Shown in pieces: positions 1-46,814 of a stretch of 64,000 bases of DNA (position 1 is the stretch's first letter; each line of letters opens with the position of its first letter). The notes beneath the pieces are model-generated. The model had not been told where the DNA came from, made no database searches, and was given only the letters and a program-made list of their open reading frames with translations. A program made the position numbers and the translations under genes. This DNA is from Tachypleus tridentatus (taxonomy: Eukaryota > Arthropoda > Merostomata > Xiphosura > Limulidae): contig NW_027467782.1 of the NCBI RefSeq assembly GCF_004210375.1, positions 22,237,276 to 22,301,275 of the forward strand. The letters run 5' to 3'.

Positions 1-28
1 TAATGATTCATATAGTTGCAAACTCTTT

Positions 29-120
29 AACCTAAAGATGACCTAAAAAGGTCACAACGTTGTTCTCTACTTCTATAGTTTTAATACCCATACCAACTGT
101 ATTGAGATAGAATTTTACAA
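29..120 (+). mobile_element. Penelope-like element end fragment (left arm)
   Basis: Contains AACCTAAAGATGACCTAAA, then GGTCACAACGTTGTTCTCTAC. This is a diverged form of the GATGACC...GGTCGAAACGTTGTTC motif seen better at 52038. Its mirror is at 46695-46786. It is a short fragment without coding sequence. Confidence 0.5.
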
Positions 121-1312
121 ACGATTTATACAGTCCACACTTAATTCAAAAAATAACTATAGCAATGATGCTGCATTAAACCGTGTTATAGAGAAAAGAG
201 ATTTAGCCTGAATCGTTTAGGGTTAGAATATAAAATGCTAATTTACTTACGTACATACTGCTTCGAGGTTTTTGGATTATTTTAACATCAAAGCATTTTG
301 CGATATAAGTTTAAAGTGCCTGATAACACTTTGTGATGTCCTAAAAGTTGGAAATAATAAAATCCTTTTGTTATAGACATTTGTTTTATCAGATTTGAAC
401 CCTTTCTCGCATTACTTTTACATGTCTTGCGATCTCTTGTACTGTTTTGATTACGTCACACAGATAAATTGTTGTAGACACGTGAACGAATATTGATTCA
501 AAAATATGAAAAATTCTGGAAAACCGTTAATAAACTAAGTTACGAGTGAAACCTCCATCTCATTTATACTGAGATTCACAGTGAAAACAAGTTTGCGAGA
601 TTAATATTGATAAATATAATTTTAATATTTTACACATTAGAACCTTACTATATTTTCAAATACCTGAATAATATTTCAATTATATTAGGTGAGAAAAAAT
701 TTAATTTTTCATGTATTGTGATGAAATTCGTTATTACCACCATTGGCCAAATTAATTGGCCAAAGTAAAGCCTAAATCTTGTTAGGTTTAGATTAATTTG
801 TAAGTGCTGAGTTTTCTTGTGAAAATATAATTTCGAAATATAATTAAGTTAATATTAATGAGATTAATTTATTCATTGTAGAATACTAATAATTTTATAT
901 ACATGTGTGTGTATATACATATGCATGTATGTTTAGAATATAACCTCTTGCGTTGAAATGACACGTTTCCCATTTTAACCAAAGTATGTATCAAATATAG
1001 TGAAAACCGATGATGGTGTTCTATTGTGTTTATGTATGTTTTCTTACATCAAAGCCACATGAGCTATTTGCGATGTACACTGAGGAAAATCCAACCCGTT
1101 ACTTTAGCTTTGCAAATCCTAATATTTAACACTCTTCTACCGCGGAAGTGATGTTATAGCCTCGGAAAAGTTTAAAATTTAAAACATTAAAGTGTTTTTC
1201 TTATCAATCCTAATCAATAATATGGGCCATAATGTGTTTCCAATTTGTAGACAAATTATTTTAGGAAATAAATAAGATTCTATGAATTTTCGATATTGTT
1301 TAAACTAACGAA

Positions 1313-1545
1313 GGCCCGGCATGATCAGGTATTCGGGTTCGAATCTCCGTCGCACCAAACATACTCGCCCTCCCAGTCTTTGGGACGTTATAATGTAACG
1401 GTCAATCTCACTATTCGTTGGTAAAAGAGTAGCCCAAGAGTTGGCGGTGGGTAGCAATGACTAGTTGCCTTCCCTCTAGCCTTACACTGCTTAATTAGGG
1501 ACGGCTAGCACAAATAGCCCTCGAGTAGCTTTGTGCGAAATTAAA
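1313..1545 (+). mobile_element. tRNA-derived SINE, family 1 (left arm)
   Basis: Head GGCCCGGCATGATCAGG, B-box GGTTCGAATCTCC, core with AAGAGTTGGCGGTGGGTAG and CTTCCCTCTAGCC, tail GTAGCTTTGTGCGAAATTAAA. The head is shortened between the A-box and the B-box. It inserted before the arm duplication, since the mirror copy at 45262-45502 is identical as far as I compared. Confidence 0.93.
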
Positions 1546-2215
1546 ATGCGCGCGCATGTGCTTATTTTCCAATATACGAGGACTGGTGGGTAAATTGCAA
1601 CATTCTCGCGCAAGTGTTAATTTTGTAGTTGAGCGTGCAGGTGTTAATTCTGTGGAAGCTCGCATAGATGCTTGTTCTGTTAAATGTTAGCGAAGTTAAT
1701 TAATTGATAAATGCCATATCAAGTATTGAATATCTTAGATGCGCGCACAGATTCTTATTTTGTTATTTTGCCAGAAATTATTAAATTGGTAGACATACTC
1801 GCAGGTGTTGTACTTCTTAGATGAGCGCGCAGGTGCTTATTTTGGACATGCGTCCAGGAGTTTATCAAAGTATATGAGCACGATAAATACTAAGCTTGTA
1901 GACACGCGTGCAGATGTTTATTTTCGTAAATGGGCACAGTAATGTGTAAATTGGTACATGCAGGTTTAAAGAAATACTTATTTTAGCACATTTGCACACA
2001 GATAGATAAATTGGTAGATCAACGCACATGAACTTGCCTTCGTACACGCACGTGAAAGTGCATAAATTTCTAAATGACGGCACAGGTGCTTATTTTATAT
2101 ATTCCATTACCAGTATAGGCGTGCGTGTAGGTGCTTATTTCGTAAATTCTCGTGCAGATGCGGAAATTGGTATGTGAATACGGAGGTGCTTACTTTTGTT
2201 TCTGTGCTTTTAGAT
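1545..2215 (+). repeat. Degenerate minisatellite (left arm)
   Basis: The motif GCAGGTGCTTATTTT and variants (AGATTCTTATTTTG, AGATGTTTATTTTCG) recur at irregular spacing of roughly 35-70 bp, often after GCGCGC. A 72-codon open frame across it is a by-product of the repeat. The mirror is at 44590-45262. Confidence 0.75.
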
Positions 2216-3284
2216 GCACAGATTTATTTCAACAGCCTTCATAGTTGTTTGTGTTTTTTTCGTAAGTGTTTTATAATAGAGGAAATATTTTACTCTTAAA
2301 GTATAATAACAAACAGGCAAAAATAGTATAGTGAACATCACCTACAATACGAGAATAAACCATATAAAAAAAGCAATTGGGTAATTTTATTTAAACGAGA
2401 AGAAAGAGAACACAACATTCGGTGTCTTTTGTAACGTTTTTTCTCGTTTTCATATCACATTTTCCATTGTAAGAAACAGCTATAGCATTGGTTTCCAGGT
2501 GAGATTACCCCGCCTTTAAAACAAATGGTTGGAATACAAATCAAATTTTTAAAACTGAATATCACATCGTTATCGACACAGTTTTTTTACCAGCTTGGAA
2601 TATGAAACGTTTCGTTCCTGTTTTGTTGTTATAAGTCAAATGTATTAATCTTTGTGTTTAATAATATTTAGTAAGAAATACGGTTATTTCTGTTGTTTAT
2701 CGCATATGAAACATTAAACTAACTATGCTAAAGGAAATGGTATTAATTACATCAGCTGGCGAAGAACGACATTTTAGTATTAATGTATGTCTAACAGTAA
2801 GACACACCATTCTTTTTGTCCACCAGATTTTCATTTGAGGCCATGTATTAGATGACGTGACAGGTTTTGTTATGAAGCGAAAGACGTGTTTATTTTATAT
2901 ATCTTTGTTAATCAAATACGATTCACATTTAGTATCGAAATGAAGCCGGCTGTGTTTTAATCTTAACCTAAAACATACATAACAGTAAAAGAGGTACATG
3001 TACTTACCTTAAGTGTTTCAATTTATTTTATAACCACTATTTCAAGTTTCATAACTGTAAACACATTTGCAAGTGTTGTAGTGCTAGACTTGACTAACAA
3101 TTGTTCAAATTGTAATACTCAAAGAAATCAGGACAAATCGTCGCATTTTTTATAAACAAATCACTACACGTCATTCATTATTCGCACTTGTTGATAAACT
3201 CAACAACACTGAATGAATATTTTATCTCAACACATAGCCAATATCACTTCTCAGATTACTGGTTTTGTTCTCCGATCAACTGAA

Positions 3285-3720
3285 GGTCAATATTACACCT
3301 TAAGCGACTGCCTATTGATATTCTAACATATGGAAGGTACAATCAAATCATAAGTAAATGTTGTTTTGTTGTTGGTGTTATAACGGTAAGAAGTGAACAC
3401 TACACCTTAAGCGACTACCTATTGATATTCTAACATATGGAAGGTTCAATCAAATCATAAGTAAATGTTTTGTTTTTTGTTGTTGTTGTTATAACGGTTG
3501 GAAGTGAACACTACACCTTAAGTGTCTAACTATTGATATCCTAACATATGGAAGGTACAATCAAATCATAAGTAAATGTTGTTTTGTTGTTGTTATGTTG
3601 GAAGTGAACACTACACCTTAAGCGTCTAACTATTGATATTCTAACATATGGAAGGTACTATCAAATCATAAGTAAATGTTTTTTTTTTTTGTTGTTGTTA
3701 TAACAGTTGAAGGTGAAAAT
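3285..3720 (+). repeat. About 105-bp tandem repeat, four units (left arm)
   Basis: Each unit has CACCTTAAGCG, TATTGATATTCTAACATATG, GAAGGTACAATCAAATCATA, AGTAAATGTT and a T/GTT-rich linker. The right arm (43230-43520) has about one unit fewer and also lacks the sequence that follows. Confidence 0.88.
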
Positions 3721-4779
3721 TACATCTTAGGCGACTGTATATTGTTAATTTAAAATGAGGAAGTCACCACCTCATCGTAAGTAACTAATTTTTTTATTTA
3801 ACACTAAGAAGTTTTTAAGTGACTGATGTTTATAAAAATAAGGAAACTGGAGTAAGATTTGTTATGTACGTTTTATTGAGACACAAACAGAACTGACCGA
3901 CAAAACGACCTTCAGGTTTTGGTAACTTTTCTTTAACAGACCTGTCATGACGTCAAGGAAATAAAATTGCTACGGGCAGAGTTTTTCACTTTCAAATCTC
4001 ACTTAAGAATATATTAGGACTACTATATTAACTAACTTAGGAAAAGAGTGGACGTTTGAAGCACGGGACATGAACTTCACACAGCAACCGAACAACAAAC
4101 AGCAGAAAACACCTTTCTACTGTTCATGGTTTTTACTTACTGCTTTATTAAATCAAAGGGTGAACAGAAAATCAACCAATAAAGTGCAGAACGAAGAAAT
4201 ATCCTAATTTCTGACCAATCCTGGCTTTAATAAATGTACATAAGGATGACAACGACTTTGCAATGTTGGAATTATTTTGTTAAATATATTCTCAGTTTTA
4301 ATATTATCTTTCTGAATTTCATTTCTAGGTTTTTTATGCTCGAAAATTTGTTTAAGAAATTTAGAAAACTATATAAACAAAGAAGAAATTGTGGCAGTTT
4401 AAAATATAAAAATTTTAACAAACAAAACTTAAAATTGATCTACTTAAATAAAACGTAAATATACATAAATGACATCTCTTGGAACGCACAGTTACATAAT
4501 GTATTTGATTGTACTGAATTAATGTCTCCCTAGATAAATTATTGTGTATATGTGCACATGAAAATGGTTTTAAATGAAACAATTTAGGGTGTGGGTGCAC
4601 TTAGAAGTTGTGTCTAATGGAATAAATGAAACAGAACATTTAAACAAATTTATTTTACTGGTTTTCTGAGGTGTATTTATTTCTTCATCGCTTCAACTGT
4701 ACATGTATATAACTGTATGCTTTTTCAACTATATATATATATACATATATGTCTTGACAGTGTATTTTGTTTTCTACAG

Positions 4780-5079
4780 CATTTGCTTGTGTTAAAGTTA
4801 CGTCTTTGGATAACATATCTCCTGAAAATGAAACATCAGAAGCCGTCAGTGTAGAAAATGGAGTGGAAATGATCACAATACCCGATGAAATGAACCAGTC
4901 GGTAGTGATCACAATACCTGATGAAATGATCCAGTCGGTAACAAGTCCAGATAAGGAGAAAGAACCAGAACGTTGGGAATGGGAAGGAAAACTGGACTTT
5001 GTTTTAAGTTCTATAAACTACTCTGTCGGTCTTGGAAACGTATTGCGATTTCCATACTTGTGTTATGAAAATGGTGGAG
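4780..5079 (+). CDS. Left SLC6 copy, exon A: N-terminal tail and TM1
   Basis: Acceptor TTTCTACAG before 4780, donor GTATGT at 5080. It encodes an acidic cytoplasmic tail with a short internal repeat ([13 protein letters not shown], then [12 protein letters not shown]), then [17 protein letters not shown] and TM1. It ends in phase 1 inside NGGG. It begins with two bases of a codon, so an upstream exon must supply the start. Trp of NVWRFPY is Leu (TTG against TGG in the right copy), and TM1 has NYSVG against NYAVG. Confidence 0.9.
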
Positions 5080-8000
5080 GTATGTGTCTTGTGGTTTAAT
5101 CCAACAAAATATACATGAAACCTTTACCTTACTAAATGTTAAATCGATGGTTCTAATGGATTATATGTTGTTGTTTGTTATTTAGGGGCATTTTTGTTTC
5201 CCTACCTCATCTGTTTAGTCTTGTGTGCTGCTCCTCTATTCTTCCTGGAAGTGGCCATTGGTCAGTACCTCAGCGTTGGTGGTATCGGGGTCTGGAATTT
5301 AGTTCCTATCTTTAAAGGTAGCTATTGTTGTTCACTTCTAATGCCTTGGTATTTTTCACCTTTTCCGGATAAATATAACTCATACTTGTGTCTCAAATAT
5401 GTCAACAGTTCTTATGTTATGTAATCTATACTTTCACTAGGAATTGGCTTTGCTTCAATGACCATCGTTTGTCTTTATAATATCTACCACGTGGTGATAA
5501 TAGCTTGGACTATATTCTACTTCTTTTCCTCAATGACGTCACCACTGCCTTGGGAATCGTGTGGTAATTGGTGGAACACAAAATACTGTATGAAAGAGGG
5601 AACCAACATCACGAATCTTAATATTACAGCCACCGAAGCAAAATCACCTGTAACCGAATTCTGGGAGTAGGTTTAATTTTTTATTTTTCAGATGAATCTT
5701 TTATTTTCGATCAATAAATAAAAGTCGTATTTGGATCTAGTGTTCTCAGAATATTGTTTTCTATGTATATATATACATATATATATTACAATGGGAGTAC
5801 AATTAAATAACTATTTTCTATCAACATAATGTTATTATTTATTCATTTTCCACATTTGTACACTGGTTTTTAGTCCAGTTAACTGTTTACCAGTAATTTA
5901 TATTTTTCTACTTTAATTTATGAAAAATATATTGTCGATAGTCCAAAATGTTTAACTTGTCCAGCCACAGTGGATTTTCAACATTTATTTTAAGATATAC
6001 CACGATGTAAAATGATAATATAATTTATTTATTAACTTATAATATATGTGGTTTAAGCATGCAGAACAAACAACTAATCCTTTACAATTAAGTTTCAATC
6101 TAGGTAAATCTCAGAGTAATAAAGATCTTCCCAATTCTATTGAAATAAATTCCATTAACAAACATTCATTTACTAACGTCGGCATGGCCGAGCACGTAAG
6201 GCATGCGACTCGAAATCTGCGGGTCGCGGGTTCGAATCCCGGTCGCACCAAATATGCTCACCCTTTCAGCCGTGGGGGCGTTATAAAGTGGCGGTCAATC
6301 GCACTATTCATTGGTAAAAGAGTAGCCCAAGAGTTGGCGGTGGGTAGTGATTACTAGTTGCCTTCCCTCTAGCCTTACACTGCTAAATTAGGGACGGCTA
6401 GCACAAATAGCCCTCGAGTAGCTTTGTGCGAAATTAAAAAAACAACAACAAACTAACGTCAAAATAACTATCTTAGAAAGTTATACAATGTAAATCTACT
6501 AATAAAAAAAGGAAAATATTTTGAAGAAAAACTCCTTATTCTTATAAATTATACAGTGATTTTCAAAACAAAACTACTGATTTTTAAATAAAATTATTTG
6601 TATTAGAATTTCAATTGAAATAAATACTTGTAATAGTAAAAAAAAGAAGTAAAGGTGGCTTCCTAGTGGCATAACGGTTTGTCTGAAGACTTATAATGCA
6701 AGTAACAGATATCTCAATGTGTATCTTTGTGCTTAACAATGATAAAGTTAAAGATAAAAAATATGATTACTTTTGATAATTTGTATTAGAATGTAAGATA
6801 CTTCTTTTAGCAGATATGTTAACACCTAAAATTAATATTAATAGTAGTGTTTTATATAAATGAGAGAAAATTTAAATATTTGTAAAATAATTGTTAAATT
6901 TTGAATTCAAACATCTTTCTATTAAAGTTTAATTTTAAATTTGATTAAATTTTGTTTAATATCATTTTTTAAATAAAATAGTGGAGGTTGGAAGTTTCAA
7001 CTTTTAGAATTTTTTTAGGATGCTTTTAAGGTTGTATCTGAATATTAAGCGTAACTGCCTTCTCACAGTTGCTGCAGCCCTATGAAAGGCAGTAGGAGTT
7101 GAGATATTACGTTTCTAAGCACTCAAATTCTAACCCTTAAATGATTTTCCATACCTGCTGACTAGTCTGACATCAGTGTCTGGATTTTATCTGACAACAT
7201 AATGCAATGGCCACTTACATTATTTGTTGTGACTCATGGTTTAGAAATAAGATTGATAATTCAAAATAACTGTTTAATTTTAATTCTGTTATAATGTTTG
7301 TTATACGTATATTTTGTAGAAGTTGGTTAAAAACAGATGATGCTTACTGTAGCTACATCTAGGAATAGACTCAACTAACAATGACTGTAATAATAATGGA
7401 CACCTCATGTGCCAGTTATGATGCACCATGTACCTTGTGAGAATTTTACCCAGTTAACCTTATTGTTAATCTTGTAAGATAAAGTTTAGGACATATATTT
7501 CTAGGTATAATTGGTTTTTAAATAACCTTCCTTGTTTCTATTATTGGCTTGAAAGGTACTTATAATACCATAGTTGACAGTTTTATCATTTAATACTCAA
7601 AAATTAAAAATTATGAAATCCTAACTGAAATTGGTTTAATAGTACATTTCAATAAAACAGTATTTATTACTCTTTTGAAGGCGTCGAACATTACAGATTA
7701 CTTCGGGATTACATGACTTGGGAGGTGAGAACATGGAACTGAGTTTGTGTTTGTTACTTGCCTGGTTTGTGGTTTATTTCGTCATCTGGAAAGGTCTACT
7801 GAGAAGTGGCAAGGTAAGATTTAAACTAAAATAAAACTTGGAAAGAAAGGAAAGATTGCATAAAACAGTGTTACAGTAACCATAAGGAAACATCACCTAA
7901 TGACATAAAACACCATTTTTGTAATTACAAGAACAGATCACATAGTAACAAAAAACATTACAGTAATCACAAGGAAAGATCACCTAATGACATCAAACGC

Positions 8001-8629
8001 CATTACAGTAATCATAAGGAAACATCACCTAATGACATCAAACACCATTACAGTAATCATAAGGAGAGATCATCTAATGACATAAAAACACCATTACTAA
8101 TAATCACAAGGAATATCACCTAATGACATAAAACACCATTACAATTATGAAAACATCACCTAATGACATAAAACACCATTTACAGTAATTATAAGGAAAA
8201 CATCACCTAATGACATAAAACACCATTACAGTAATCTATAAGAAAACATTACCTGATGACGCAAAACACCATTTTAGTATTCATGAAAACATCACCTGAT
8301 GACATAAAACACCACACAGTAATTATAAAGAAACATCACCTAATGACATAAAACACCATTACAGTAATTATAAAGAAACACATACCTAACGACATAAAAA
8401 ACAATTACAGTAATCATAAGAAAACATCACCTTTATTTAATCCAATATCTTTAATGTTTCTGGCATTAATTATTTCATATCTTCGGACTGTTTTACTTTA
8501 TTATTTGTTCATTGTTTGCAGATTATTGAGGTGTACAGCAGTCACCCATACGTCATTCTAATCGTTCTTTTATTCGTGGAGTGACGTTAGAGGGCGCTGG
8601 AGATGGACTACTTTTTTACATTAGTCCAC
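4780..8629 (+). CDS. SLC6A1-like: SLC6 GABA-transporter-like gene, left copy, partial (exons for N-terminus to TM5)
   Basis: Plasma-membrane symporter of the Na+/Cl- dependent neurotransmitter transporter family (SLC6). Five exons are visible: 4780-5079, 5186-5317, 5441-5666, 7681-7813 and 8522 to the gap at 8630. All internal junctions are GT-AG and their phases agree. Seen: TM1 motif ending [14 protein letters not shown]2 [25 protein letters not shown], the EL2 cysteine pair C-x8-C, two NIT glycosylation sites, and VTEFWER before TM4. These match mammalian GAT1 better than monoamine transporters; TM1 has Gly where amine carriers have Asp. Substrate GABA is inference; a related amino acid is possible. 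The start codon lies in an upstream exon I could not find, since exon 4780 begins after a splice acceptor in phase 1. Odd: the normally invariant Trp of NVWRFPY is Leu here (NVLRFPY). The copy stops at a 500-N gap, and no later exons occur on this strand. Confidence 0.85.
5186..5317 (+). CDS. Left SLC6 copy, exon B: TM1 end, TM2
   Basis: Acceptor TTATTTAG, donor GTAGCT. 132 bp, phase 1 to phase 1. It encodes [19 protein letters not shown], then [19 protein letters not shown] and VPIFKG. This is the conserved SLC6 TM2 with the G-Q-Y motif. It is the same length as its right-arm partner at 41765-41896. Confidence 0.93.
5441..5666 (+). CDS. Left SLC6 copy, exon C: TM3 and extracellular loop 2
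   Basis: Acceptor CTTTCACTAG, donor GTAGGT. 226 bp, entering in phase 1 and leaving in phase 2. It encodes [19 protein letters not shown], the rest of TM3, then [16 protein letters not shown] and the loop with NIT twice, ending VTEFWE. The PW..C and NT..C cysteines form the family's EL2 disulfide. This exon has no partner in the right gene copy. Confidence 0.92.
6180..6450 (+). mobile_element. SINE family 1 in the intron between the TM3 and TM4 exons
   Basis: Full form: A-box TGGCCGAGCACG, anticodon-arm region GCGACTCGAAATC, B-box GGTTCGAATCCC, core, and tail ending GCGAAATTAAAAAAACAAC. It lies inside the left SLC6 copy, in the part missing from the right copy. Confidence 0.93.
6656..6740 (+). 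mobile_element. SINE family 2 fragment
   Basis: Head GGCTTCCTAGTGGCATAACG, then GTCTGAAGACTTATAATGC and tail TTTGTGCTTAACAATG. It matches the other members of a second, tRNA-like family (see 11790 and 21261), with an internal loss. Confidence 0.6.
7681..7813 (+). CDS. Left SLC6 copy, exon D: end of loop 2, TM4
   Basis: Acceptor TTTTGAAG, donor GTAAGA. 133 bp, entering in phase 2 and leaving in phase 0. It encodes [20 protein letters not shown], then [20 protein letters not shown] and RSGK. LAW..VYF.IWKG is the standard SLC6 TM4. It is absent from the right gene copy. Confidence 0.92.
7855..8440 (+). repeat. About 45-bp minisatellite in the intron before TM5 (left copy)
   Basis: About 12 units built from CATCACCTAATGACATAAAA, CACCATTACAGTAATCATAA and GGAAA. 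The right-copy partner is at 41480-41735. The deletion that removed the TM3 and TM4 exons ends in this array. Confidence 0.9.
8522..8629 (+). CDS. Left SLC6 copy, exon E (TM5), cut by the gap
   Basis: Acceptor TTTGCAG. It encodes [10 protein letters not shown] and then, in another frame, [18 protein letters not shown], the conserved TM5 and loop 3. The frame is lost near LLF/RG by one base, a defect shared with the right copy. Two more single-base differences from the right copy (one extra base, one missing) lie near 8540-8550. These look like consensus errors or decay. The gap follows directly. Confidence 0.85.
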
Positions 8630-9129
8630 NNNNNNNNNNNNNNNNNNNNNNNNNNNNNNNNNNNNNNNNNNNNNNNNNNNNNNNNNNNNNNNNNNNNNNN
8701 NNNNNNNNNNNNNNNNNNNNNNNNNNNNNNNNNNNNNNNNNNNNNNNNNNNNNNNNNNNNNNNNNNNNNNNNNNNNNNNNNNNNNNNNNNNNNNNNNNNN
8801 NNNNNNNNNNNNNNNNNNNNNNNNNNNNNNNNNNNNNNNNNNNNNNNNNNNNNNNNNNNNNNNNNNNNNNNNNNNNNNNNNNNNNNNNNNNNNNNNNNNN
8901 NNNNNNNNNNNNNNNNNNNNNNNNNNNNNNNNNNNNNNNNNNNNNNNNNNNNNNNNNNNNNNNNNNNNNNNNNNNNNNNNNNNNNNNNNNNNNNNNNNNN
9001 NNNNNNNNNNNNNNNNNNNNNNNNNNNNNNNNNNNNNNNNNNNNNNNNNNNNNNNNNNNNNNNNNNNNNNNNNNNNNNNNNNNNNNNNNNNNNNNNNNNN
9101 NNNNNNNNNNNNNNNNNNNNNNNNNNNNN
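8630..9129. other. Assembly gap, exactly 500 N
   Basis: A run of 500 N, the size of a standard scaffold placeholder. It falls inside the TM5 exon of the left SLC6 copy, so the true distance and the order and orientation of the flanking pieces are not shown by the sequence. Confidence 0.99.
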
Positions 9130-9840: not shown

Positions 9841-9844
9841 TATG

Positions 9845-10285: not shown

Positions 10286-10429
10286 GACAAAATATCAAGC
10301 TATACCAACTTATTTCACTTGAGATTCTTGTTTCCCAGATTCCTATTATTTTAATTGCTGTCGTTCATTGACTTGTCACGTAGAAACTATATTTCGTAAA
10401 CGTGTTCGTCTTTCCGTATCTAAGCATTG

Positions 10430-14749: not shown

Positions 14750-14750
14750 T

Positions 14751-14997: not shown

Positions 14998-15000
14998 ATA

Positions 15001-32364: not shown

Positions 32365-32431
32365 TTCCAATGTTTGACAGTTGATTCATTTGAGTTTTGG
32401 GAAGCTCGAAATCTTCACCAAGTGCCTTTTT

Positions 32432-35400: not shown

Positions 35401-38400
35401 GTAAAATACATCATCACATTCTACAGAACAGAATAACAACATATAAATAAACAGATATATTAGAAGTGGGAAGTGACGTAAGAAATAATGCAGGACATGA
35501 ATTTGAAACTTACCATAAACCCATGTAATAGCTATAGTTTGAAAGAATACAATGAAGAGTAGAGTCATTCCACTGGCAGAATAACAATCCATTATTTGAA
35601 ATATGTACATGCCCCCCTGAAAAGTAAAAAGATTATTTTAGTGACTAATACAATCAGTTTAAAGAAATCCAATCAGAATTATTTATTAACAGTTTCGTTT
35701 TTATTAAATATATTTCATTACAAGTTACAGTTTTCATATTCTAGATACAAGATAACACCATGGTAAAGCCACAGAAATAAACAGATATATCAGAAATGGA
35801 ACGTTACTGAATAAATATAATAGTATTGGGAGTTGTGCTTATGGTAAGTTTTATTTATTACGTCATTTTTACAGTGAATAAGATTTGTTTTAGACTACCC
35901 ACCCAATATTAGACATCATGCACTACACACCCAACATAAGTCTTCATGAGACATCACACATTATCATGAGACATCATGCACTACACATCATCATGAGACA
36001 TCATGTGCTACACATCATCATTAGACATCATGCATTACACATCATCATGAGACATCATGCAATACACATCATCATTAGATCACGTACTACACATCATGCA
36101 TACTAAACATTAAACATCATTACATCACGTACTACACATCAACATCAGACATCATGCACTACACATCATCATTAGACACGTTACATACTAAACACTAAAC
36201 ATTTGACATCATGTGCTACACATCATCATTAGACGTCATGTACTACAGACCAATCATTACATAACAAATTGAGATAGTTATAGATATCTTTCTACAGGAA
36301 CTAACATCTCACTCTACAGCAGTACCTTACTGTTATCATCATTGACGCCATTAATTATGACGCCATTACTGAAGACATCTTGGATAAGATGACGGCTTGA
36401 GGAACTTTTTTTTTTGACAGACAAATGAAACATCTACCATAATGATAGCTTCCTTTTACTCGTTTATTGATTTTTTTAAATATTATGGAACATACCTTAG
36501 TGACCATTGGTAGGCCTAACATGTATAAGATGATAACAATTACTACGGTAAAAACTTCTCTTCGCGGTCTCAAAAGAGATGGCCATTCGTCCACGATCCC
36601 TGTGATGAAAGTTTCCACGGTGCAGAACTGAAAAACAAAAACTGACCAATATCAGTACACATGTTGTCATAACATACAGATCAAAGTAACTTAATAACAT
36701 AGTTAGACAGATCTATATAAATTGTATATGTACACTGCTAACCAAAATCTTAAGATCAATGAACAAAAAGAGAAAATATGCATTTTGCGTTGTTAGACTC
36801 AACCACATATTTGAGTGGAGCTTCGATAAAAGACAATAAGAAAAGGGAAAATAAAAAACTTTTTTAGCATTTAATAGGAAAAATGTGAACACTATGAAAT
36901 TAGCCTAAATACTAGTTGATCAAAAGTTTAAGACCGTACTGAAATGAAGCGTTAATCGGTAAACACGAAACGAAATTTAGTCATTTGTGTTCAAGCATTA
37001 GTATTGTCAACATCTTCCACTCGCATCTCCTGTGTAACATTGGGTACAAACATGCCAAAGGCAAAAAAGTTGACAGAGTTTGAACGTGGCAGCATTCTCG
37101 AACTGCAAAATTAAGGTATCTCTCAACATGCCATCGCTGGTGAGACTGGGCGTAGTAAAACTGCTGTTGCAAATTTCTTAAAAGATCCTGAGGAATATGG
37201 AACGAGAATTTCAAGTGGTCAGCCCAAAAATATTTCGCTGGCGTTGAGTAGGAGGATTCGACGGGTTGTCCGGCAAGACAACAGCCAATCGTCGAACCAG
37301 ATTAAGGCCCTTACGGACACAGAATGCAGCTCAAGAACAATAAGACGGCACCTACGAGAGAAAGGTTTTAAAAATGATAAACGTCTTCAAAGGCTACGCC
37401 TCCTTCCACACCACGAAACAGCTCAGTTAAACTTTGCTGAGAAGCACCAAACATGGGGCGTAGAAATGTGGAAGAAAGTTTTGTTTTCCGATGAGAAAAA
37501 AGTTAACCTGGACGGTCCAGATGGCTTACAACGTTACTGGCACGATAAGGATATCACACCAGAGAAAGTTTCTACACGACACAGTGGAGGAGGTTCCATC
37601 ATGATCTGAGGTGCTTTCTCCTTCCATGGAACAATAGAACTCAGATTATTCAGGGGCGTCAAACACCAGCTGGCCACATTAGCATGTTGGCGAGAGCATC
37701 CTTATTGACTGAAGGTTCCCGCTTGTGTGGAAATACCTGGATCTTTCAGCAAAACAACGCTGCAATCCACAATGCCCGCAGGACAAAGGACTTTTTCATG
37801 GCGAATAACGTGATTCTTTGGGACCATCCAGCGTGTTCGCCCGAACTGAACCCCATTGAAAATGTTTGGGGGTAGATGGCAAGGAAAATCTATAGAAATG
37901 GACGTCAATTTCAAACAGTGCATGATATTCGTAAAGCCATCTTCACCACTTGGAATAATATACCAGCCAGCTTTCTGCGAAATCTTATATCGACCATGTC
38001 AAAGCGAATGTTTGCAATTATTCGCAATGACGGCTGTACAACTCACTAATGAGATCTCTTATTGGGCATTTCCTACCCTGTTTAGAACTTCTTTTTGGTA
38101 TGGTCTTAAACTTTTGAGCAGCTAGTATTTAGGTTAATTTCATAGTGTTCACATTTTTCCTATTAAATGCTAAAAGGTTTTTTATTTTTATTTTCCCTTT
38201 TCTTATTTTCATGTTTTGAAGCTCTACTCAAATAAGTGGTTGAGTCTAACAACGCAAAATGCATATTTTTTCCTTATGTCAATTGGCCTTAAGATTTCGG
38301 TCAGCCTTGTATATATATTTAGTGAATTAATGTTTTATATAATAAAGTTTCAAACACACGTGTTATTATTTAGTTTGATAACGTAATACTTCATCTTGCG

Positions 38401-41400
38401 TGAGAGGACGTTTTAAGTTATAAGTTTCTGAAATAGAAGTTTATCTCTATGGATCACTGAAGAATGGTACTTTGAAATTTCTTACATATTAAAATACTTA
38501 ACCAGCGATAAATTGTTAAACAATATGTGGTTTCGCATCCATTGTTTGATTTGTTAGATATAAAATAGAACATAATGTAAACTCATGTGACGTGCAGCAA
38601 CAAGTATATGTGCCACACAACAAACGTGTGTTAGAGGTCGCAGTTGAAACATACAACAATCTGAAACTAGGACTAGAATAAAGTGGTGAAATTTGTCGCA
38701 GGTATCAACCACGTAACTCATTAGTGACATATGTAACAACTTACAAACATATGTAGCAACTGCAAGAGGTATTAACTATGTAGTTGATATAGTTCATTAC
38801 TGTGACATGTGGCACATAACTAAAAAATGTAACACGTAACAGCCATGTAACTTGTTGCTAATAAATGTAACACGTAACAGCCATGTAACTTGTTACTAAT
38901 ATATGTAACACGATAGGAAAACTTAGGAGGTATCCATCGTGTAGATGATATCTGTTATATGTAGCAAGTTACATACAATTGTAGGATGTAGCATACACAT
39001 GTATTAACAATTGTATTGTAACTCGACACATGACTTGCAACCAAATGTTTGATAGGGCAGAGGAGGAAATAAAATATATGATATTAGCAACACACCAGAA
39101 GGGCTAGTTTTGTTAAACTGAAAAATTATATGTTACACGCACACCAGGGAATAATATATGGGAGTCATGGAGTAAAACAGTTCGTAGCTTCTACCGTTAG
39201 CTCCTGTTGCTACTCAGGTTGTCAGTGCAATTAATGACAATGATATCCTTTCATTTTATCAACTACAAGTTTCACAAATTTCACGTACTAGCCTTACGTT
39301 CATTGAGGGATTGGCAGAATTTCTAAATCCCAGAAAACAGTCGCAACTTGCTAATTGTTTTCCCCTTACCTATCGGTTCTCTCGTATATCTCTTGTTATT
39401 TGTTGAAATGTGTAATTGGGTAAAATGTAACGGACGTACTAAATAACACCCGCACGTTAACGTTACTCACGTTTTTATACTGCTGAAATTGTTTATTTCA
39501 CTTCCAAGGAGATTCCATACGTTGAACCACGCATAAGACGTTAAAACTCCCACCAAGCAAACGATAAGAGAAACGTATAAATTTGAAACAAAAACGAAAA
39601 GACAGTGTTTAATCTCTGAATATTTCACAATGTTGACGTACATTAACACATAAACATATTATCTGCTCACCTGACTATTTATGCCCAGGACTACCAGCAT
39701 GAAGAAGAATACAGTTGCCCATAGAGGTGAACTTTGCAACTGTGAAACAACTTCAGAGTAGGTGATGAATGCCAACCCTGGACCTGAAGAAAATACACCA
39801 TGTTAGATTATACTAAACAAGGACCGTGTTTGTACTCTGAAAATAACACAGCAGGTCACCGTCTGATAATACTTAGTGTATATTAAGATGTTGATGCACT
39901 GTAACTTAACAATAGACGTTTCATTTTAAATGTTTCAGAACCAAGATTAAAAAAAAATATATTAATAAAGTTTGTTCTGAAATATTCTGTTACACGTTGA
40001 TTTTGTACAGAAACAGAATTTTTAGTGTTTATATAAACAACTGAAGCACTAGAAGCCTGAATTATCTTACCGGACTTCACAACGTCAGCAACTTCAGTCC
40101 CGTCACCTTTCAAGTAGGCCATGTGTCCGAGGACGGAAAATACAACGCTACCAGCAAATATACTGGTAGCAGGGTTAATAAGACAAAGAATATATCCGTC
40201 TCTAGAAATAAAGATAGAGAAACAATAATGAATGTGTGCAAAGTGTACAATAATATCCATGGAAACAGAAACACTGAAAGAATAACGAGACAGAATTATT
40301 ACATTATTGAACATTTTGTGCAAATCATTGTTAAATAATTAAATTAAAACATAAGAAAACATTTCTTAAGAGTTTGTTTGTTACCGGAAGAAGTTGTGGC
40401 TAAACTTGTTGTAACTTCCAAGAGTTACGACGGAACAGAAACCAACACCAAAGGTGAAAACACTTGCGTTCCTGCTGTCACCCAGACCTAATAACATTAA
40501 TACAATAAATTAATACTGATTACAAAGAGTTCACTTCTTTAAATTTAACACTAATTTAGTTTCGTTTCGTTTTGATTAAAGAATTATTAACTAGTATTAA
40601 AGCTTGATAGCAAATAAACGAAAAAAAAAGTCGCTTAACAGTTACTGATTAACAATGACACTGTTTCACTAAAGACGTAAACTATAGCTTCATTAGATGG
40701 GAAGTTTTATTTGTTGCCCAGCCTGGTTGTTAGTGTTTGTCTTCAGCGTCAGGGGCATTAAAATGTACGATTAATCCCACTATTCGTTGGTAAAAGAATA
40801 TGCCATTGGTTCTGTCCAACAACCTTTAACATCTAACATTAATATTTACTGGTGTTTATATCGTATATGAATGTAATAATGATAACATTGGTATATTAAT
40901 ATAATAACAATAACACTTAAATCTCAATATAGTAACAATAACATTTAAATCTCAATATAATAACAATAACATTTATATAAGAATATAATGACAATAACAT
41001 TTATATGTGAATGTAATAACAAATACATTTGTATATGAATATAATTGCAATAACATATATGAATATAATAACAAATACACATTTATATATGAATGTAATA
41101 GCAATAACATTTATATATGAATACAATAACAATAACATTTTATATATGAATATAATAACAATAACATTAGGTATATGAATGTAATAACAATAATTGAGTA
41201 TATGAATGTAATAACAATAACATTAGTATATGAATGTAATAACAATATCATAAACGAACCTTGGGATCCAAAAGTTTGTCAAATTGTGGACTAATGTAAA
41301 AAGTAGTCCATCTCCAGCGCCCTCTAACGTCACTCCACGAATAAAAGAACGATTAGAATGACGTATGGAGTGACTGCTGACACCTCAATAATCTGCAAAC

Positions 41401-42302
41401 AATGAACAAATAATAAAGTAAAACAGTCCGAAGATATGAAATAATTAATGCCAGAAACATTAAAGATTATTGGATTAAATAAAAGGTGATGTTTTCTTAT
41501 GATTACTGTAATTGTGTTTTTTATGTCGTTAGGTGATGTTTTCTTATAATTACTGTAATGGTGTTTTATGTCGTTAGGTGATGTTTTCTTATGATTACTG
41601 TAATGGTGTTTTATGTCATTAGGTGATGTTTTCCTTATAATTACTGTAATGGTGTTTTATGTCATTAGGTGATGTTTCTCTTATGATTATTGTAATGGTG
41701 TTTTATGTCATTAGGTGATCATTCCTTGTGATTCAAGGCATTAGAAGTAAACAACAATAGCTACCTTTAAAGATAGGAACTAAATTCCAGACCCCGATAC
41801 CACCAACGCTGAGGTACTGACCAATGGCCACTTCCAGGAAGAATAGAGGAGCAGCACACAAGACTAAACAGATGAGGTAGGGAAACAAAAATGCCCCTAA
41901 ATAACAAACAACAACATATAATCCATTAGAACCATCGATTTAACATTTAGTAAGGCAAAGGTTTCATGTATATTATGTTGGATTAAACCACAAGACACAT
42001 ACCTCCACCATTTTCATAACACAAGTATGGAAATCGCCATACGTTTCCAAGGCCGACAGCGTAGTTTATAGAACTTAAAACAAAGTCCAGTTTTCCTTCC
42101 CATTCCCAACGTTCTGGTTCTTTCTCCTTATCTGGACTTGTTACCGACTGGGTAATTTCATCAGGTATTGTGATCACTACCGACTGATTCATTTCATCGG
42201 GTATTGTGATCATTTCCACTCCATTTTCTACACTGACGGTTTCTGATGTTTCATTTTCAGGAGATATGTTATCCAAAGACGTTACTTTAACACAAGCAAA
42301 TG
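32432..42302 (-). CDS. SLC6A1-like: SLC6 GABA-transporter-like gene, right copy, 3'-complete but missing two exons as assembled
   Basis: Same transporter gene on the opposite strand. Exons in transcript order: 42302-42003, 41896-41765, [TM3 and TM4 exons absent], 41392-41260, 40487-40385, 40201-40071, 39783-39671, 36627-36496, 35616-35514, 34464-34364, 32999-32829, 32479-32432 (stop). All introns are GT-AG. Features resembling GAT1: NVWRFPY, SYNKF in TM6, [10 protein letters not shown] in TM7 with the Na+-site Asn and Cl--site Ser kept, [39 protein letters not shown] and SLKDR. Odd: the Na2-site Asp of LGIDSQ is Asn (LGINSQ). Phase bookkeeping shows exon 41392-41260 two bases short and exon 40487-40385 one base short. 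Joining exon 41765 directly to 41392 would break frame, so skipping cannot rescue it. Whether this is a pseudogene or assembly damage is open. Confidence 0.87.
32685..32748 (+). repeat. Two satellite units in the last SLC6 intron
   Basis: CAATATGATCATATACTAAA, GGATCTAGTGTTAGTAATAT and GATTATGTACTGAAGGA. They lie between exon L and the terminal exon, separated from the main array by about 320 bp that includes the terminal exon. Confidence 0.88.
32829..32999 (-). CDS. Right SLC6 copy, exon L: TM11-TM12
   Basis: 171 bp (57 codons), acceptor TTCCTTTAG, donor GTGAGT. It encodes [20 protein letters not shown], then [20 protein letters not shown]12, and [13 protein letters not shown]...YVYPWWGE resembles creatine/GABA carriers. 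SLKD..I matches the GAT1 C-terminal entry. Confidence 0.94.
33550..33824 (-). mobile_element. SINE family 1 in an SLC6 intron
   Basis: TTTGGTTTGTTTTGAGTTTC tail, core, then GAATTCGAACCCACGACCC and GACCGTATCGGTCC. It lies between exons K and L of the right copy, in the same orientation as the gene. Confidence 0.9.
34364..34464 (-). CDS. Right SLC6 copy, exon K: TM10-TM11
   Basis: 101 bp, acceptor ATTATTGCAG, donor GTAAGT. It encodes [20 protein letters not shown], then [13 protein letters not shown]. The N..EM.G.RP motif of GAT-type carriers is present. Confidence 0.93.
34661..34920 (+). mobile_element. SINE family 1 in an SLC6 intron, opposite strand
   Basis: ACCCTGGTGGTTAGGGCGCT, CGACTCGTAAACTGAGGGTC, GGATCCGAATCTCC, core, tail GCAAATTTAAACAAAAC. 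It lies between exons J and K of the right copy. Confidence 0.88.
35090..35400. repeat. Degenerate tandem repeat, about 55 bp, in an SLC6 intron
   Basis: GGGTTAACTTGAGAATAATA, AGTACAACAGCACATTCTAG and variants, about five units, between exons J and K. Confidence 0.75.
35514..35616 (-). CDS. Right SLC6 copy, exon J: TM10
   Basis: 103 bp, acceptor ACTTTTCAG, donor GTAAGT. It encodes [20 protein letters not shown], then [19 protein letters not shown]...D.YSASG is diagnostic for SLC6 TM10. It leaves in phase 1. Confidence 0.94.
35915..36250. repeat. About 27-bp minisatellite in an SLC6 intron
   Basis: ACATCATGCACTACACATCA plus TCATGAG or TCATTAG, about a dozen units, between exons I and J. An open frame across it reads as HHALHIIMR repeats and is not a gene. 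Confidence 0.9.
36496..36627 (-). CDS. Right SLC6 copy, exon I: TM9
   Basis: 132 bp, phase 0 to phase 0, donor GTATGT. It encodes [19 protein letters not shown], then [19 protein letters not shown] and LPMVTK. FCTVE.FIT..VDE.P.LLR.RRE is close to mammalian GAT1 and unlike the monoamine clade. This is the best single exon for assigning the subfamily. Confidence 0.94.
36732..38312 (+). mobile_element. Tc3-like DNA transposon with about 200-bp inverted ends, in an SLC6 intron
   Basis: The ends carry CCAAAATCTTAAGATCAAT (left) and the reverse of CTTAAGATTTCGGTCAGCC (right). The inner edge of each arm has AAATACTAG...CAAAAGTTTAAGACC. The arms are about 200 bp and still highly similar. It is flanked by TA-rich sequence, as expected. 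It lies between exons H and I, on the strand opposite the gene. Confidence 0.9.
37052..38049 (+). pseudogene. Tc3-like transposase, inactive
   Basis: About 330 codons from [18 protein letters not shown], through a helix-turn-helix ([20 protein letters not shown]) and [18 protein letters not shown], to the catalytic region: [15 protein letters not shown] (first Asp), [13 protein letters not shown] (second Asp replaced by Asn) and [12 protein letters not shown] (Glu kept). Stops: TAA at codon 21, TGA after GGGSIMI, and TAG after NPIENVWG. The frame also shifts in the region 37620-37690. Not functional. Confidence 0.9.
38690..38970. repeat. Degenerate repeat with TGTAACACGTAAC motif
   Basis: ATATGTAACACGTAACAGCC and CATGTAACTTGTTACTAAT recur three to four times at about 38-45 bp. 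Each unit contains its own short inverted repeat (GTTACA/TGTAAC). It lies in an SLC6 intron. Confidence 0.65.
39671..39783 (-). CDS. Right SLC6 copy, exon H: loop 4 and TM8
   Basis: 113 bp, donor GTGAGC. It encodes [19 protein letters not shown], then [19 protein letters not shown]. The SLC6 signature L-G-[IL]-D-S-Q has Asn (AAT) for Asp. In GAT1 this Asp (395) helps bind the second sodium. Confidence 0.93.
40071..40201 (-). CDS. Right SLC6 copy, exon G: TM7
   Basis: 131 bp, donor GTAAGA. It encodes [20 protein letters not shown], then [14 protein letters not shown] and TEVADVVKS. The Asn and Ser of N-x3-S in INPATS correspond to the Na+ and Cl- ligands of GAT1 TM7. The second residue of the motif is Pro, where GAT1 has Ser. 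Confidence 0.93.
40385..40487 (-). CDS. Right SLC6 copy, exon F: TM6
   Basis: Acceptor TTATTAG, donor GTAAC. It encodes [10 protein letters not shown], then [19 protein letters not shown] and SHNFFR, the SLC6 TM6 region with the SYNKF motif. The phases need 104 bp but only 103 are present. One T appears to be missing from the run between VF and TFGVG. Confidence 0.9.
40736..40806 (+). mobile_element. SINE family 1, core fragment
   Basis: GGGGCATTAAAATGTACG, then AATCCCACTATTCGTTGGT and AAAAGAATATGCC. It has neither head nor tail. Confidence 0.65.
40845..41250. repeat. AT-rich 27-bp minisatellite next to the TM5 exon
   Basis: TATATGAATGTAATAACAAT plus AACATTT, about 14 units, ending within about 10 bp of the exon E donor. 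Confidence 0.9.
41260..41392 (-). CDS. Right SLC6 copy, exon E: TM5 and loop 3
   Basis: Acceptor TTTGCAG, donor GTTCGT. It encodes [18 protein letters not shown], then [13 protein letters not shown], then [14 protein letters not shown]. It is 133 bp, but the flanking phases (0 and 0) need 135, so two single bases are missing. One is before RGVTLE (shared with the left copy). One is in the T-run of LLFY, where the left copy has six T and this has five. Confidence 0.88.
41480..41735 (-). repeat. About 45-bp minisatellite in the right copy, five to six units
   Basis: Same unit reversed (GGTGATGTTTTCTTATGATT). Fewer units than the left copy. Confidence 0.9.
41765..41896 (-). CDS. Right SLC6 copy, exon B: TM2
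   Basis: 132 bp, phase 1 to phase 1, encoding the same [11 protein letters not shown] to VPIFKG segment as 5186-5317. About 17 bp into the following intron the match to the left arm stops. The sequence jumps to the minisatellite before TM5, so the TM3 and TM4 exons are missing. Confidence 0.92.
42003..42302 (-). CDS. Right SLC6 copy, exon A: N-terminal tail and TM1
   Basis: 300 bp, the same size and splice sites as the left copy exon 4780-5079. It carries the intact family motif [16 protein letters not shown]. It has the same duplicated VxITIPDE element in the tail, with a few amino-acid differences from the left copy (ETVSVE for EAVSVE, DEITQS for DEMIQS). Confidence 0.92.
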
Positions 42303-43229
42303 CTGTAAAAAACAAAATACACTATCAAGACATATATGTATATATATATATATATAGTTGAAAAAGCATACAGTTATATACATGTATAGTTGAAGCGATG
42401 AAGAAATAAACACACCTCAGAAAACCAGTAAAATAAATTTGTTTAAGTGTTCTATTTCATTTATTCCATTAGACACAACTTCTACGTGCACCCACACCCT
42501 AAATTGTTTCATTTAAAACCATTTTCATGTGCACATATACACAATAATTTATCCAGGGAGACATTAATTCAGTGCAATCAAATGCATTATGTAACTGTAC
42601 GTTCCAAGAGATGTCACTTATGTATATTTACGTTTTATTCAAGTAGATCAATTTTTAAGTTTCGTTTGTTAAAATTTTTATATTTTAAACTGCCACAATT
42701 TCTTCTTTGTTTATATGTTTTCTAAATTTCTTAAACAAACTTTCAAACATAAAAAACCTAGAAATGAAATTCAGAAAGATAATATTAAATCTGACAATAT
42801 ATTTAACAAAATAATTCCAACATTGCAAAGTCGTTGTTATCCTTATGTACATTTATTAAAGCCAGGATTGGTCAGAAATTAGGATTTCTCTTCGTTCTGC
42901 ACTTTATTGGTTGATTTTCTGTTCACCCTTTGATTTAATAAAGCAGTAAGTAAAAACCATGAACAGTAGAGTGGAAAGGTGTTTTCTGTTGTTTGTTGTT
43001 GTGTGAAGTTCATGTCCCGTGCTTCAAACGTTCACTCTTTTCCCGAGTTAGTTAATATAGTAGTCCTAATATATTCTTAAGTGAGATTTGAAAGTGAAAA
43101 AACTCTGCCCCGTAGCAATTTTTATTTCCTTGACGTCATGACAGGTCTGTTAAAGAAAAGTTACCAAAATCTGAAGGTCGTTTTGTCGGTCAGTTCTGTT
43201 TGTGTCTCAATAAAATGTACATAACAAAA

Positions 43230-43520
43230 CATTTACTTATGATTTGATTGTACCTTCCATATGTTAGATATCAATAGTTAGACACTTAAGGTGTAGTGTT
43301 CACTTCCAACCGTTAACAACAACAACAAAAACAAAACATTTACTTATGATTTGATTGAACCTTCCATATGTTAGAATATCAATAGGTAGTCGCTTAAGGT
43401 GTAGTGTTCACTTCTTACCGTTATAACACCAACAACAAAACAACATTTACTTATGATTTGATTGTACCTTCCATATGTTAGAATATCAATAGGCAGTCGC
43501 TTAAGGTGTAATATTGACCT
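43230..43520 (-). repeat. About 105-bp tandem repeat, about three units (right arm)
   Basis: Same unit as 3285-3720, reversed. The copy-number change explains most of the length difference between the arms. Confidence 0.88.
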
Positions 43521-44589
43521 TCAGTTGATCGGAGAACAAAACCAGTAATCTGAGAAGTGATATTGGCTATGTGTTGAGATAAAATATTCATTCAGTGTTG
43601 TTGAGTTTATCAACAAGTGCGAATAATGAATGACGTGTAGTGATTTGTTTATAAAAAATGCGACGATTTGTCCTGATTTCTTTGAGTATTACAATTTGAA
43701 CAATTGTTAGTCAAGTCTAGCACTACAACACTTGCAAATGTGTTTACAGTTATGAAACTTGAAATAGTGGTTATAAAATAAATTGAAACACTTAAGGTAA
43801 GTACATGTACCTCTTTTACTGTTATGTATGTTTTAGGTTAAGATTAAAACACAGCCGGCTTCATTTCGATACTAAATGTGAATCGTATTTGATTAACAAA
43901 GATATATAAAATAAACACGTCTTTCGCTTCATAACAAAACCTGTCACGTCATCTAATACATGGCCTCAAATGAAAATCTGGTGGACAAAAAGAATGGTGT
44001 GTCTTACTGTTAGACATACATTAATACTAAAATGTCGTTCTTCGCCAGCTGATGTAATTAATACCATTTCCTTTAGCATAGTTAGTTTAATGTTTCATAT
44101 GCGATAAACAACAGAAATAACCGTATTTCTTACTAAATATTATTAAACACAAAGATTAATACATTTGACTTATAACAACAAAACAGGAACGAAACGTTTC
44201 ATATTCCAAGCTGGTAAAAAAACTGTGTCGATAACGATGTGATATTCAGTTTTAAAAATTTGATTTGTATTCCAACCATTTGTTTTAAAGGCGGGTAATC
44301 TCACCTGGAAACCAATGCTATAGCTGTTTCTTACAATGGAAAATGTGATATGAAAACGAGAAAAAACGTTACAAAAGACACCGAATGTTGTGTTCTCTTT
44401 CTTCTCGTTTAAATAAAATTACCCAATTGCTTTTTTTCTATGGTTTATTCTCGTATTGTAGGTGATGTTCACTATACTATTTTTGCCTGTTTGTTATTAT
44501 ACTTTAAGAGTAAAATATTTCCTCTATTATAAAACACTTACGAAAAAAAACACAAACAACTATGAAGGCTGTTGAAATAAATCTGTGCA

Positions 44590-45262
44590 TCTAAAAGCAC
44601 AGAAACAAAAGTAAGCACCTCCGTATTCACATACCAATTTCCGCATCTGCACGAGAATTTACGAAATAAGCACCTACACGCACGCCTATACTGGTAATGG
44701 AATATATAAAATAAGCACCTGTGCCGTCATTTAGAAATTTATGCACTTTCACGTGCGTGTACGAAGGCAAGTTCATGTGCGTTGATCTACCAATTTATCT
44801 ATCTGTGTGCAAATGTGCTAAAATAAGTATTTCTTTAAACCTGCATGTACCAATTTACACATTACTGTGCCCATTTACGAAAATAAACATCTGCACGCGT
44901 GTCTACAAGCTTAGTATTTATCGTGCTCATATACTTTGATAAACTCCTAGACGCAAGTCCAAAAATAAGCACCTGCGCGCTCATCTAAGAAGTACAACAC
45001 CTGCGAGTATGTCTACCAATTTAATAATTTCTGGCAAAAATAACAAAATAAGAATCTGTGCGCGCATCTAAGATATTCAATACTTGATATGGCATTTATC
45101 AATTAATTAACTTCGCTAACATTTAACAGAACAAGCATCTATGCGAGCTTCCACAGAATTAACACCTGCACGCTCAACTACAAAATTAACACTTGCGCGA
45201 GAATGTTGCAATTTACCCACCAGTCCTCGTATATTGGAAAATAAGCACATGCGCGCGCATTT
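44590..45262 (-). repeat. Degenerate minisatellite (right arm)
   Basis: Reverse complement of 1545-2215, with motif AAATAAGCACCTGCGCGC in this orientation. Confidence 0.75.
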
Positions 45263-45502
45263 TAATTTCGCACAAAGCTACTCGAGGGCTATTTGTGCTA
45301 GCCGTCCCTAATTAAGCAGTGTAAGGCTAGAGGGAAGGCAACTAGTCATTGCTACCCACCGCCAACTCTTGGGCTACTCTTTTACCAACGAATAGTGAGA
45401 TTGACCGTTACATTATAACGTCCCAAAGACTGGGAGGGCGAGTATGTTTGGTGCGACGGAGATTCGAACCCGAATACCTGATCATGCCGGGCCTTCGTTA
45501 GT
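45262..45502 (-). mobile_element. tRNA-derived SINE, family 1 (right arm)
   Basis: Mirror of 1313-1545, present through the inverted duplication rather than a separate insertion. Confidence 0.93.
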
Positions 45503-46694
45503 TTAAACAATATCGAAAATTCATAGAATCTTATTTATTTCCTAAAATAATTTGTCTACAAATTGGAAACACATTATGGCCCATATTATTGATTAGGATT
45601 GATAAGAAAACACTTTAATGTTTTAAATTTTTAAATTTTAAACTTTTCCGAGGCTATAACATCACTTCCGCGGTAGAAGAGTGTTAAATATTAGGATTTG
45701 CAAAGCTAAAGTAACGGGTTGGATTTTCCTCAGTGTACATCGCAAATAGCTCATGTGGCTTTGATGTAAGAAAACATACATAAACACAATAGAACACCAT
45801 CATCGGTTTTCACTATATTTGATACATACTTTGGTTAAAAAGGGAAACGTGTCATTTCAACGCAAGAGGTTATATTCTAAACATACATGCATATGTATAT
45901 ACACACACATGTATATAAAATTATTAGTATTCTACAATGAATAAATTAATCTCATTAATATTAACTTAATTATATTTCGAAATTATATTTTCACAAGAAA
46001 ACTCAGCACTTACAAATTAATCTAAACCTAACAAGATTTAGGCTTTACTTTGGCCAATTAATTTGGCCAATGGTGGTAATAACGAATTTCATCACAATAC
46101 ATGAAAAATTAAATTTTTTCTCACCTAATATAATTGAAATATTATTCAGGTATTTGAAAATATAGTAAGGTTCTAATGTGTAAAATATTAAAATTATATT
46201 TATCAATATTAATCTCGCAAACTTGTTTTTCACTGTGAATCTCAGTATAAATGAGATGGAGGTTTCACTCGTAACTTAGTTTATTAACGGTTTTCCAGAA
46301 TTTTTCATATTTTGAATCAATATTCGTTCACGTGTCTACAACAATTTATCTGTGTGACGTAATCAAAACAGTACAAGAGATCGCAAGACATGTAAAAGTA
46401 ATGCGAGAAAGGGTTCAAATCTGATAAAACAAATGTCTATAACAAAAAGGATTTTATTATTTCCAACTTTTAGGACATCACAAAGTGTTATCAGGCACTT
46501 TAAACTTATATCGCAAAAATGCTTTGATGTTAAAATAATCCAAAAACCTCGAAGCAGTATGTACGTAAGTAAATTAGCATTTTATATTCTAACCCTAAAC
46601 GATTCAGGCTAAATCTCTTTTCTCTATAACACGGTTTAATGCAGCATCATTGCTATAGTTATTTTTTGAATTAAGTGTGGACTGTATAAATCGT

Positions 46695-46786
46695 TTGTAA
46701 AATTCTATCTCAATACAGTTGGTATGGGTATTAAAACTATAGAAGTAGAGAACAACGTTGTGACCTTTTTAGGTCATCTTTAGGTT
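46695..46786 (-). mobile_element. Penelope-like element end fragment (right arm)
   Basis: Reverse complement of 29-120, carried by the inverted duplication. Confidence 0.5.
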
Positions 46787-46814
46787 AAAGAGTTTGCAAC
46801 TATATGAATCATTA

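Follow-up and report, generated by a model that had tools for sequence, protein, structure and literature searches.

Two long inverted arms face each other across an assembly gap in a 64,000-nt stretch of the Tachypleus tridentatus genome assembly (C19:22237276-22301275, hereafter the window; G+C content 32.5%). Are they two alleles of one locus, a local duplication, or something else? The initial annotation described near-identical arms of about 5 kb (1-5348 and 41743-46814) and explained them either by an inverted duplication of recent date or by the head-to-head scaffolding of two haplotypes. We find that the inverted similarity is real and that it was wrongly bounded. The arms are two copies of a segmental duplication that has been amplified and carries a gene, and they are probably not alleles. 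We give a probability of about 65% to the full reading, in which they are paralogous copies of a composite, recently spread segmental duplication that carries a GAT1-like gene of the SLC6 family.

The genome searches covered the assembly of 2.17 Gb in 205 contigs, of which C19 (69.8 Mb) makes up 3.2%. Copy numbers are lower bounds, counted in assembly sequence and not in reads. Positions without a contig name follow the numbering of the window. Equivalent positions extend this numbering beyond the window edges (negative values lie left of position 1). L and R denote the left and the right arm, L012 the copy at C19:27.4 Mb and L013 the copy on C13.

Extent and identity of the inverted arms

The strongest inverted match in the window scores 6330 bits, compared to a maximum of 38.3 bits across 20 first-order Markov shuffles. 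Its identity is uneven. Positions 1-3580 (plus strand) match 46814-43228 inverted at 99.3%, with 4 mismatches and 21 gap bases over 3594 columns. Positions 3604-5348 match 43518-41734 at only 91.1% (97 mismatches, 1796 columns), and 8187-8629 match 41733-41286 at 92%. The drop falls at a 111-bp minisatellite of 4.2 copies (3294-3736, plus strand). The right arm has no counterpart of the 2.8 kb at 5349-8186; its two sides join at 41734|41733 (minus strand). The part of the right arm that is 91-92% identical to the left covers 41286-43518, on the minus strand. Hence the identity called allele-like by the annotation holds for the first 3.6 kb and not beyond. Both arms do share short interspersed element (SINE)-like and minisatellite stretches, as annotated. 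One further minisatellite has 45-bp units (7859-8432, plus strand) and a right-arm counterpart at 41484-41733.

The 5-kb bounds turn out to be an effect of the window edge. The left arm runs on past position 1, a point that the annotation had raised, and reaches C19:22182214, about 55 kb beyond the edge. The right arm (43228-64000 in the window, minus strand) runs on to C19:22338983. Together the high-identity pairing covers about 58 kb per arm, C19:22182214-22240855 against 22280503-22338983. Aligned directly, the equivalent positions -19999 to 3580 match 66784 to 43228 inverted at 99.25% over 23620 columns, and the match extends to -29999/76640. Further out, 1501 columns at C19:22331276 pair with the other arm at 99.8%, and C19:22332776-22338983 pairs with 22188417-22182214 inverted at 97.96%. 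For C19:22189919-22207275 in the left arm, the comparison consists of one 1.5-kb probe (C19:22319675-22321175), whose inverted partner at 22200021-22201515 is 99% identical.

High identity ends at C19:22182214 and C19:22338983 without any N. We considered these positions as the outer end of the repeat and rejected them, since an inverted match of 93% resumes after an offset of about 5.7 kb. This makes an indel a better explanation of the non-matching stretch outside the arms than unrelated flanks would be. Compared directly with the left side, the right outer flank gave short repeat matches only. A 2-kb probe taken beyond the right arm had no match next to the left arm among the best 40 of 6912 candidates, and the mirrored chunks at C19:22345276, 22365276 and 22411276 showed no arm match, only 180 columns at 77%. 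The left outer flank matches the right side at 93%, no better than it matches C19:12128443-12130347 (95% over a slightly shorter stretch).

The outer flank on the right has a further copy of its own. The block at C19:22339675-22348419 recurs about 135 kb to the right, at C19:22475143-22483883, where the right-flank probe matches at about 100% in the same orientation and the left-flank probe at 92%.

Upstream of the gene the arms differ by 85 substitutions in 23222 aligned bases. Of the 51 gap events between them, 42 are single-base, and 37 of these 42 lie inside homopolymers, which points to long-read consensus error.

Copies across the genome

The arms are not a pair of two. A probe from positions 2000-3000 (1001 bases) has at least 13 full-length places at 96% identity or more among the best 40 of 62 candidates: both arms, five others on C19, four on C13 and one each on C1 and C9. 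A second probe, about 19 kb left of the window, has at least 16 places, both arms included, at 97-100% over at least 981 of 1001 bases. Thus sequence of at least 1 kb recurs at 90% identity or more in multiple places, and the block holds a multi-exon gene, as in segmental duplications.

The gene itself is likewise present in many places. When the first mapped exon was searched with its surroundings, 37 of the 40 places scored (the best of 83 candidates) covered at least 849 of 901 bases at 89% or more, and 27 of the 40 lie on C19. Exons 5 and 6 behave similarly, with 26 of 40 places on C19 (the best of 1070 candidates), and 19 of the 40 exon-1 places have one of these exon-5/6 places in order within 20 kb. 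The remaining 21 exon-5/6 places could be 3' halves that lost their 5' part at assembly gaps. We fetched six of them and discarded this idea: none starts at a gap, none contains an N, and all continue upstream. The missing exon-1 partners are most likely an effect of only the best candidates being scored.

This concentration on one contig, on 3.2% of the assembly, suggests that C19 is possibly an ampliconic or repeat-rich chromosome. A rough control, a search for rhodopsin-type receptors, placed none on C19 among the matches listed (157 matches; best 147 of 1103 candidates). Taken together with the 27 of 40 exon-1 places, this is the ground for a stronger proposal: C19 would be ampliconic and gene-poor (sex-limited, supernumerary or largely heterochromatic), with dozens of copies of the γ-aminobutyric acid (GABA) transporter-like gene, some of them in real head-to-head palindromes that exchange sequence with copies on other chromosomes. 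We regard this proposal as rather unlikely. A probe from the spacer between the arms also had 23 of 40 matches on C19, a count to be read with the bias of C19-derived probes towards C19.

Could the long upstream part be one large mobile element, inserted beside the gene, whose copies form the arms? Some arrangements look that way. In one shorter copy (L045) similarity is lost at position 2730, where other upstream sequence is joined, and another copy (L021) breaks near 2222 and is arranged in yet another way. However, gene and upstream part occur together in the long copies that we fetched, and pieces of the arm recur alone elsewhere. We consider a mobile element very improbable, though no systematic search was made for terminal repeats or target-site duplications.

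Relationships among the copies

If the arms were alleles, they should be each other's closest relatives throughout. To compare them we used one alignment of 13 sequences, namely both arms and the copies L010 to L020 (L021 is not part of it). The trees omit L019, whose upstream part is interrupted by an N gap.

Upstream of the identity step (equivalent -1900 to 3280), R differs from L by 9 substitutions in 5125 bases and from L012 by 7 in 5155, so that R is as near to the copy at C19:27.4 Mb as it is to L. L differs from L012 by 15 in 5176 and from L013 by 15 in 5164. Within the gene (3820-5340) the picture changes. Here L is identical to L012 (0/1514) and to L013 (0/1515) and differs by 1/1521 from L011, while it is 40/1474 away from R. 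The copy nearest to R is L015 (19/1482). The gene tree groups R with L015-L018 and L020, split from the L-like copies with a support of 100. One short stretch of the gene is silent on this matter: at 8433-8629 the left arm, the right arm, the copy at C19:27.4 Mb and L028 differ by gaps only, with zero substitutions, and therefore it does not discriminate between copies.

The arms are thus mosaic, the gene part on the left being identical to that of L012 and L013. This makes it improbable that the arms are alleles of a single locus. The specific version of this idea, that two haplotypes were scaffolded head to head (a false heterotype duplication), has points in its favor. The arms are mutual best matches upstream, their substitutions are few and their gaps mostly single-base and homopolymer-bound, and a gap separates the pair on one scaffold (8630-9129), which the consulted part of PMC9516828 gives as a mark of false duplications. 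Yet the gene of L equals copies on contigs of other chromosomes instead of R, R has no equivalent of 2.8 kb present in L, upstream R is no closer to L than to L012, and the outer flank is only 93% identical, with another place that matches the left flank as well. We judge the haplotype explanation unlikely. Of the two explanations in the annotation, simple alleles are disfavored by the mosaic, by the outer flank and by the 11 further copies. A local inverted duplication would fit the best matches of the upstream probes (below), as would alleles or local conversion.

The natural reading of the mosaic is ectopic recombination or gene conversion between copies.

Several observations weigh against two paralogous copies of a widespread duplication. 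The other arm is the best non-self match for all four probes from the high-identity part, a result compatible with alleles, with conversion between neighbors and with an inverted duplication formed locally; the margin is narrow for the 2000-3000 probe and for the probe about 19 kb left of the window. The upstream tree places L and R together, with a support of only 44. If the assembly path were chimeric across the minisatellite, it could produce the same mosaic pattern. Finally, the number of copies is known from the assembly only.

A GAT1-like transporter gene in both arms

Each arm carries part of a gene that, by sequence similarity, is an SLC6 transporter gene of the GAT1-like type. Three open reading frames in the window match the family PF00209 (SNF; cut-off 27 bits): 4758-5096 on the plus strand (55.2 bits, E = 6.9e-15), and 41986-42321 (62.4 bits, E = 4.6e-17) and 39886-40338 (32.5 bits, E = 5.2e-8) on the minus strand. 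We placed the exons with an SLC6 query and then with the exons of the relative at C19:27.4 Mb.

Neither window copy is a complete open gene. The left gene (plus strand) has five mapped exons. Exon 1 (4780-5079) matches PF00209 and is 100% identical to the exon of the C19:27.4 Mb relative. Exon 2 (5186-5317), exon 3 (5441-5666) and exon 4 (7681-7813) were found with the query and the relative's exons. Exon 5 (8522-8629) is truncated by the gap and holds 109 of the 135 bases of the relative's exon. The part of this gene that aligns inverted with the right arm at 91% is 3604-5348.

The right gene (minus strand) spans 32850-42302 and is supported by PF00209, the query and the relative's exons. It lacks exons 3 and 4. 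Nine exons were mapped: the 5'-most pair (42302-42003, 41896-41765), four that follow the missing exons (41392-41260, 40487-40385, 40201-40071, 39783-39671) and three further 3' (36627-36496, 35617-35514, 34464-34364). A putative last exon at 32945-32850 is a weak match (E = 0.008).

The relative at C19:27414509-27432008 is free of gaps. It has left-like upstream sequence and exons 1-5, after which it follows the right gene collinearly with 94% identity. Of the 11 exons mapped in it, nine share one frame and, when joined, encode 468 amino acids. These match positions 1-407 of the 524-position PF00209 profile with 533.9 bits, and their best match among solved structures is GABA transporter 1 (483.6 bits). 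We had also considered glycine transporter 2; it was the best match only for a single right exon, and the longer joined relative is closest to GAT1. No paper on an expansion of glycine transporters in the horseshoe crab was found, in a literature search that did not extend to GABA transporters or GAT1.

The gene resembles the sodium:neurotransmitter symporter SLC6A1 (GAT1) in the PF00209 and GABA transporter 1 matches of the C19:27.4 Mb copy. It differs in a motif of the left copy and the C19:27.4 Mb relative, GLGNVLRF, for which the right copy has GLGNVWRF and the SLC6 query likewise has W, and in that both window copies are incomplete.

Some exons are interrupted in frame. Single T bases are missing within T runs in exons 5 and 6 of the right gene, small indels occur in exon 5 of the left gene, and a G run at exon 10 puts the C19:27.4 Mb copy out of frame. 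These frameshifts look like long-read consensus errors, and we did not use them as a sign of gene decay.

The gap and the head-to-head arrangement

Between the two window copies lies the 500-N scaffold gap at 8630-9129, the only N run in the window, located as annotated. The annotation's worry about this gap finds support. The left gene is cut within exon 5, and right of the gap the SLC6 query found no plus-strand exon at a convincing score within the window. The stretch 9130-32849, a spacer that separates the gap from the 3' end of the right gene, is likewise without a detected plus-strand SLC6 exon.

Nor is the arrangement unique. A second head-to-head pair of the same family (L044 and L010, C19:11791553-11834640) surrounds another 500-N gap, at C19:11808499-11808998. 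Left of that gap the arm lies in plus orientation, passes through a local rearrangement and ends at equivalent -3627, with 97% identity along its final 3.6 kb. Right of it the arm continues in minus orientation from equivalent 7513. This pair fits real palindromes that break assemblies and similar contigs set head to head equally. Altogether, 14 copies were examined, and four of them contain N runs (the left arm, L010, L019 and L020).

Was the left contig, ending at 8629, then joined to the wrong neighbor? It may belong elsewhere and have been set opposite the right copy, since near-identical copies look the same to Hi-C reads. A misjoin of this kind would leave the duplicated family untouched and concern only whether the two copies lie side by side, and its odds overlap with those given above. 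The truncated exon 5 without a continuation, the second pair, the N runs in other copies and the identity of the left gene part to the C19:27.4 Mb and C13 copies all speak for it. On the other hand, the other arm is the best match of the four upstream probes, as expected of true neighbors in a local inverted duplication, real palindromes break assemblies too, and the six fetched 3' halves do not begin at gaps. We give a misjoin a substantial chance, somewhat short of even. It is plausible that the two copies are true neighbors that face each other on the chromosome.

Other features of the window

An open reading frame at 9848-10294 (minus strand) has a sub-threshold match to BTB_2 (18.9 bits, cut-off 21.4, E = 0.0019). 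From 9887 on, the sequence has many further matches of 87-96% identity on C19, C8, C1, C12 and other contigs and is perhaps another amplified gene piece. Tc1/mariner-like transposase pieces (PF01498) lie at 13335-16150, a region with an internal direct duplication of 92% identity, and at 37115-37872. A minisatellite of 37-bp units occupies 5.3 kb (26928-32220), with adjoining inverted units at 26966-27328. No RNA family reached its gathering score in the window, and no transfer RNA was found there in a search with bacterial settings. Elsewhere in the assembly, COX1-like stretches, most of them with stops, occur in large contigs (C9:118898281-118899402, C13:169799699-169800061, C3:62898857-62899363 and others); they are probable nuclear copies of mitochondrial DNA. 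The mitochondrial contig itself is C205, which uses the invertebrate genetic code and has ND2, COX1 and COX2 in the usual arthropod order.

Discussion

How could such a locus arise? In the paralogous-copy reading, the duplicated unit would be a block of about 60 kb or more, made up of the GAT1-like gene and a long upstream region, that spread recently to many places, mostly on C19. The two window copies would face each other, with their genes converging. Non-allelic recombination or gene conversion may have spread the copies and kept them alike, and identity between copies would switch at the 111-bp minisatellite. The near-identity of this stretch of the left gene to other copies may have broken the assembly there, and the 500-N join would mark the break.

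Known systems resemble the locus in part. Like segmental duplications that carry gene families, it consists of blocks of tens of kilobases at more than 90% identity, present on contigs of several chromosomes, mosaic and with inverted neighbors. It differs in its concentration on one contig and in its at least 40 exon-1 places (an assembly-based count). Large palindromes, for example on sex chromosomes, have long inverted arms around a spacer. Here too arms of tens of kilobases at about 99% carry a gene and enclose a spacer. In contrast to such palindromes, copies elsewhere match an arm as closely as its partner does over the 5 kb that was compared, and more closely within the gene, and an assembly gap lies at the center, so that the arms of about 58 kb are joined only across 500 N and not by continuous sequence. 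False assembly duplications, as far as the consulted part of PMC9516828 describes them, share the pair on one scaffold with a gap in between. They differ in that the pair studied here is mosaic and sits within a family of many other copies.

Without a search of the entire genome, a local inverted pair next to a gap can pass for alleles or for a simple duplication. Should the copies be a product of the assembly, gene counts taken from it are inflated. If they are real, then the horseshoe crab genome holds a large and young expansion of neurotransmitter transporter genes that is concentrated on a single contig.

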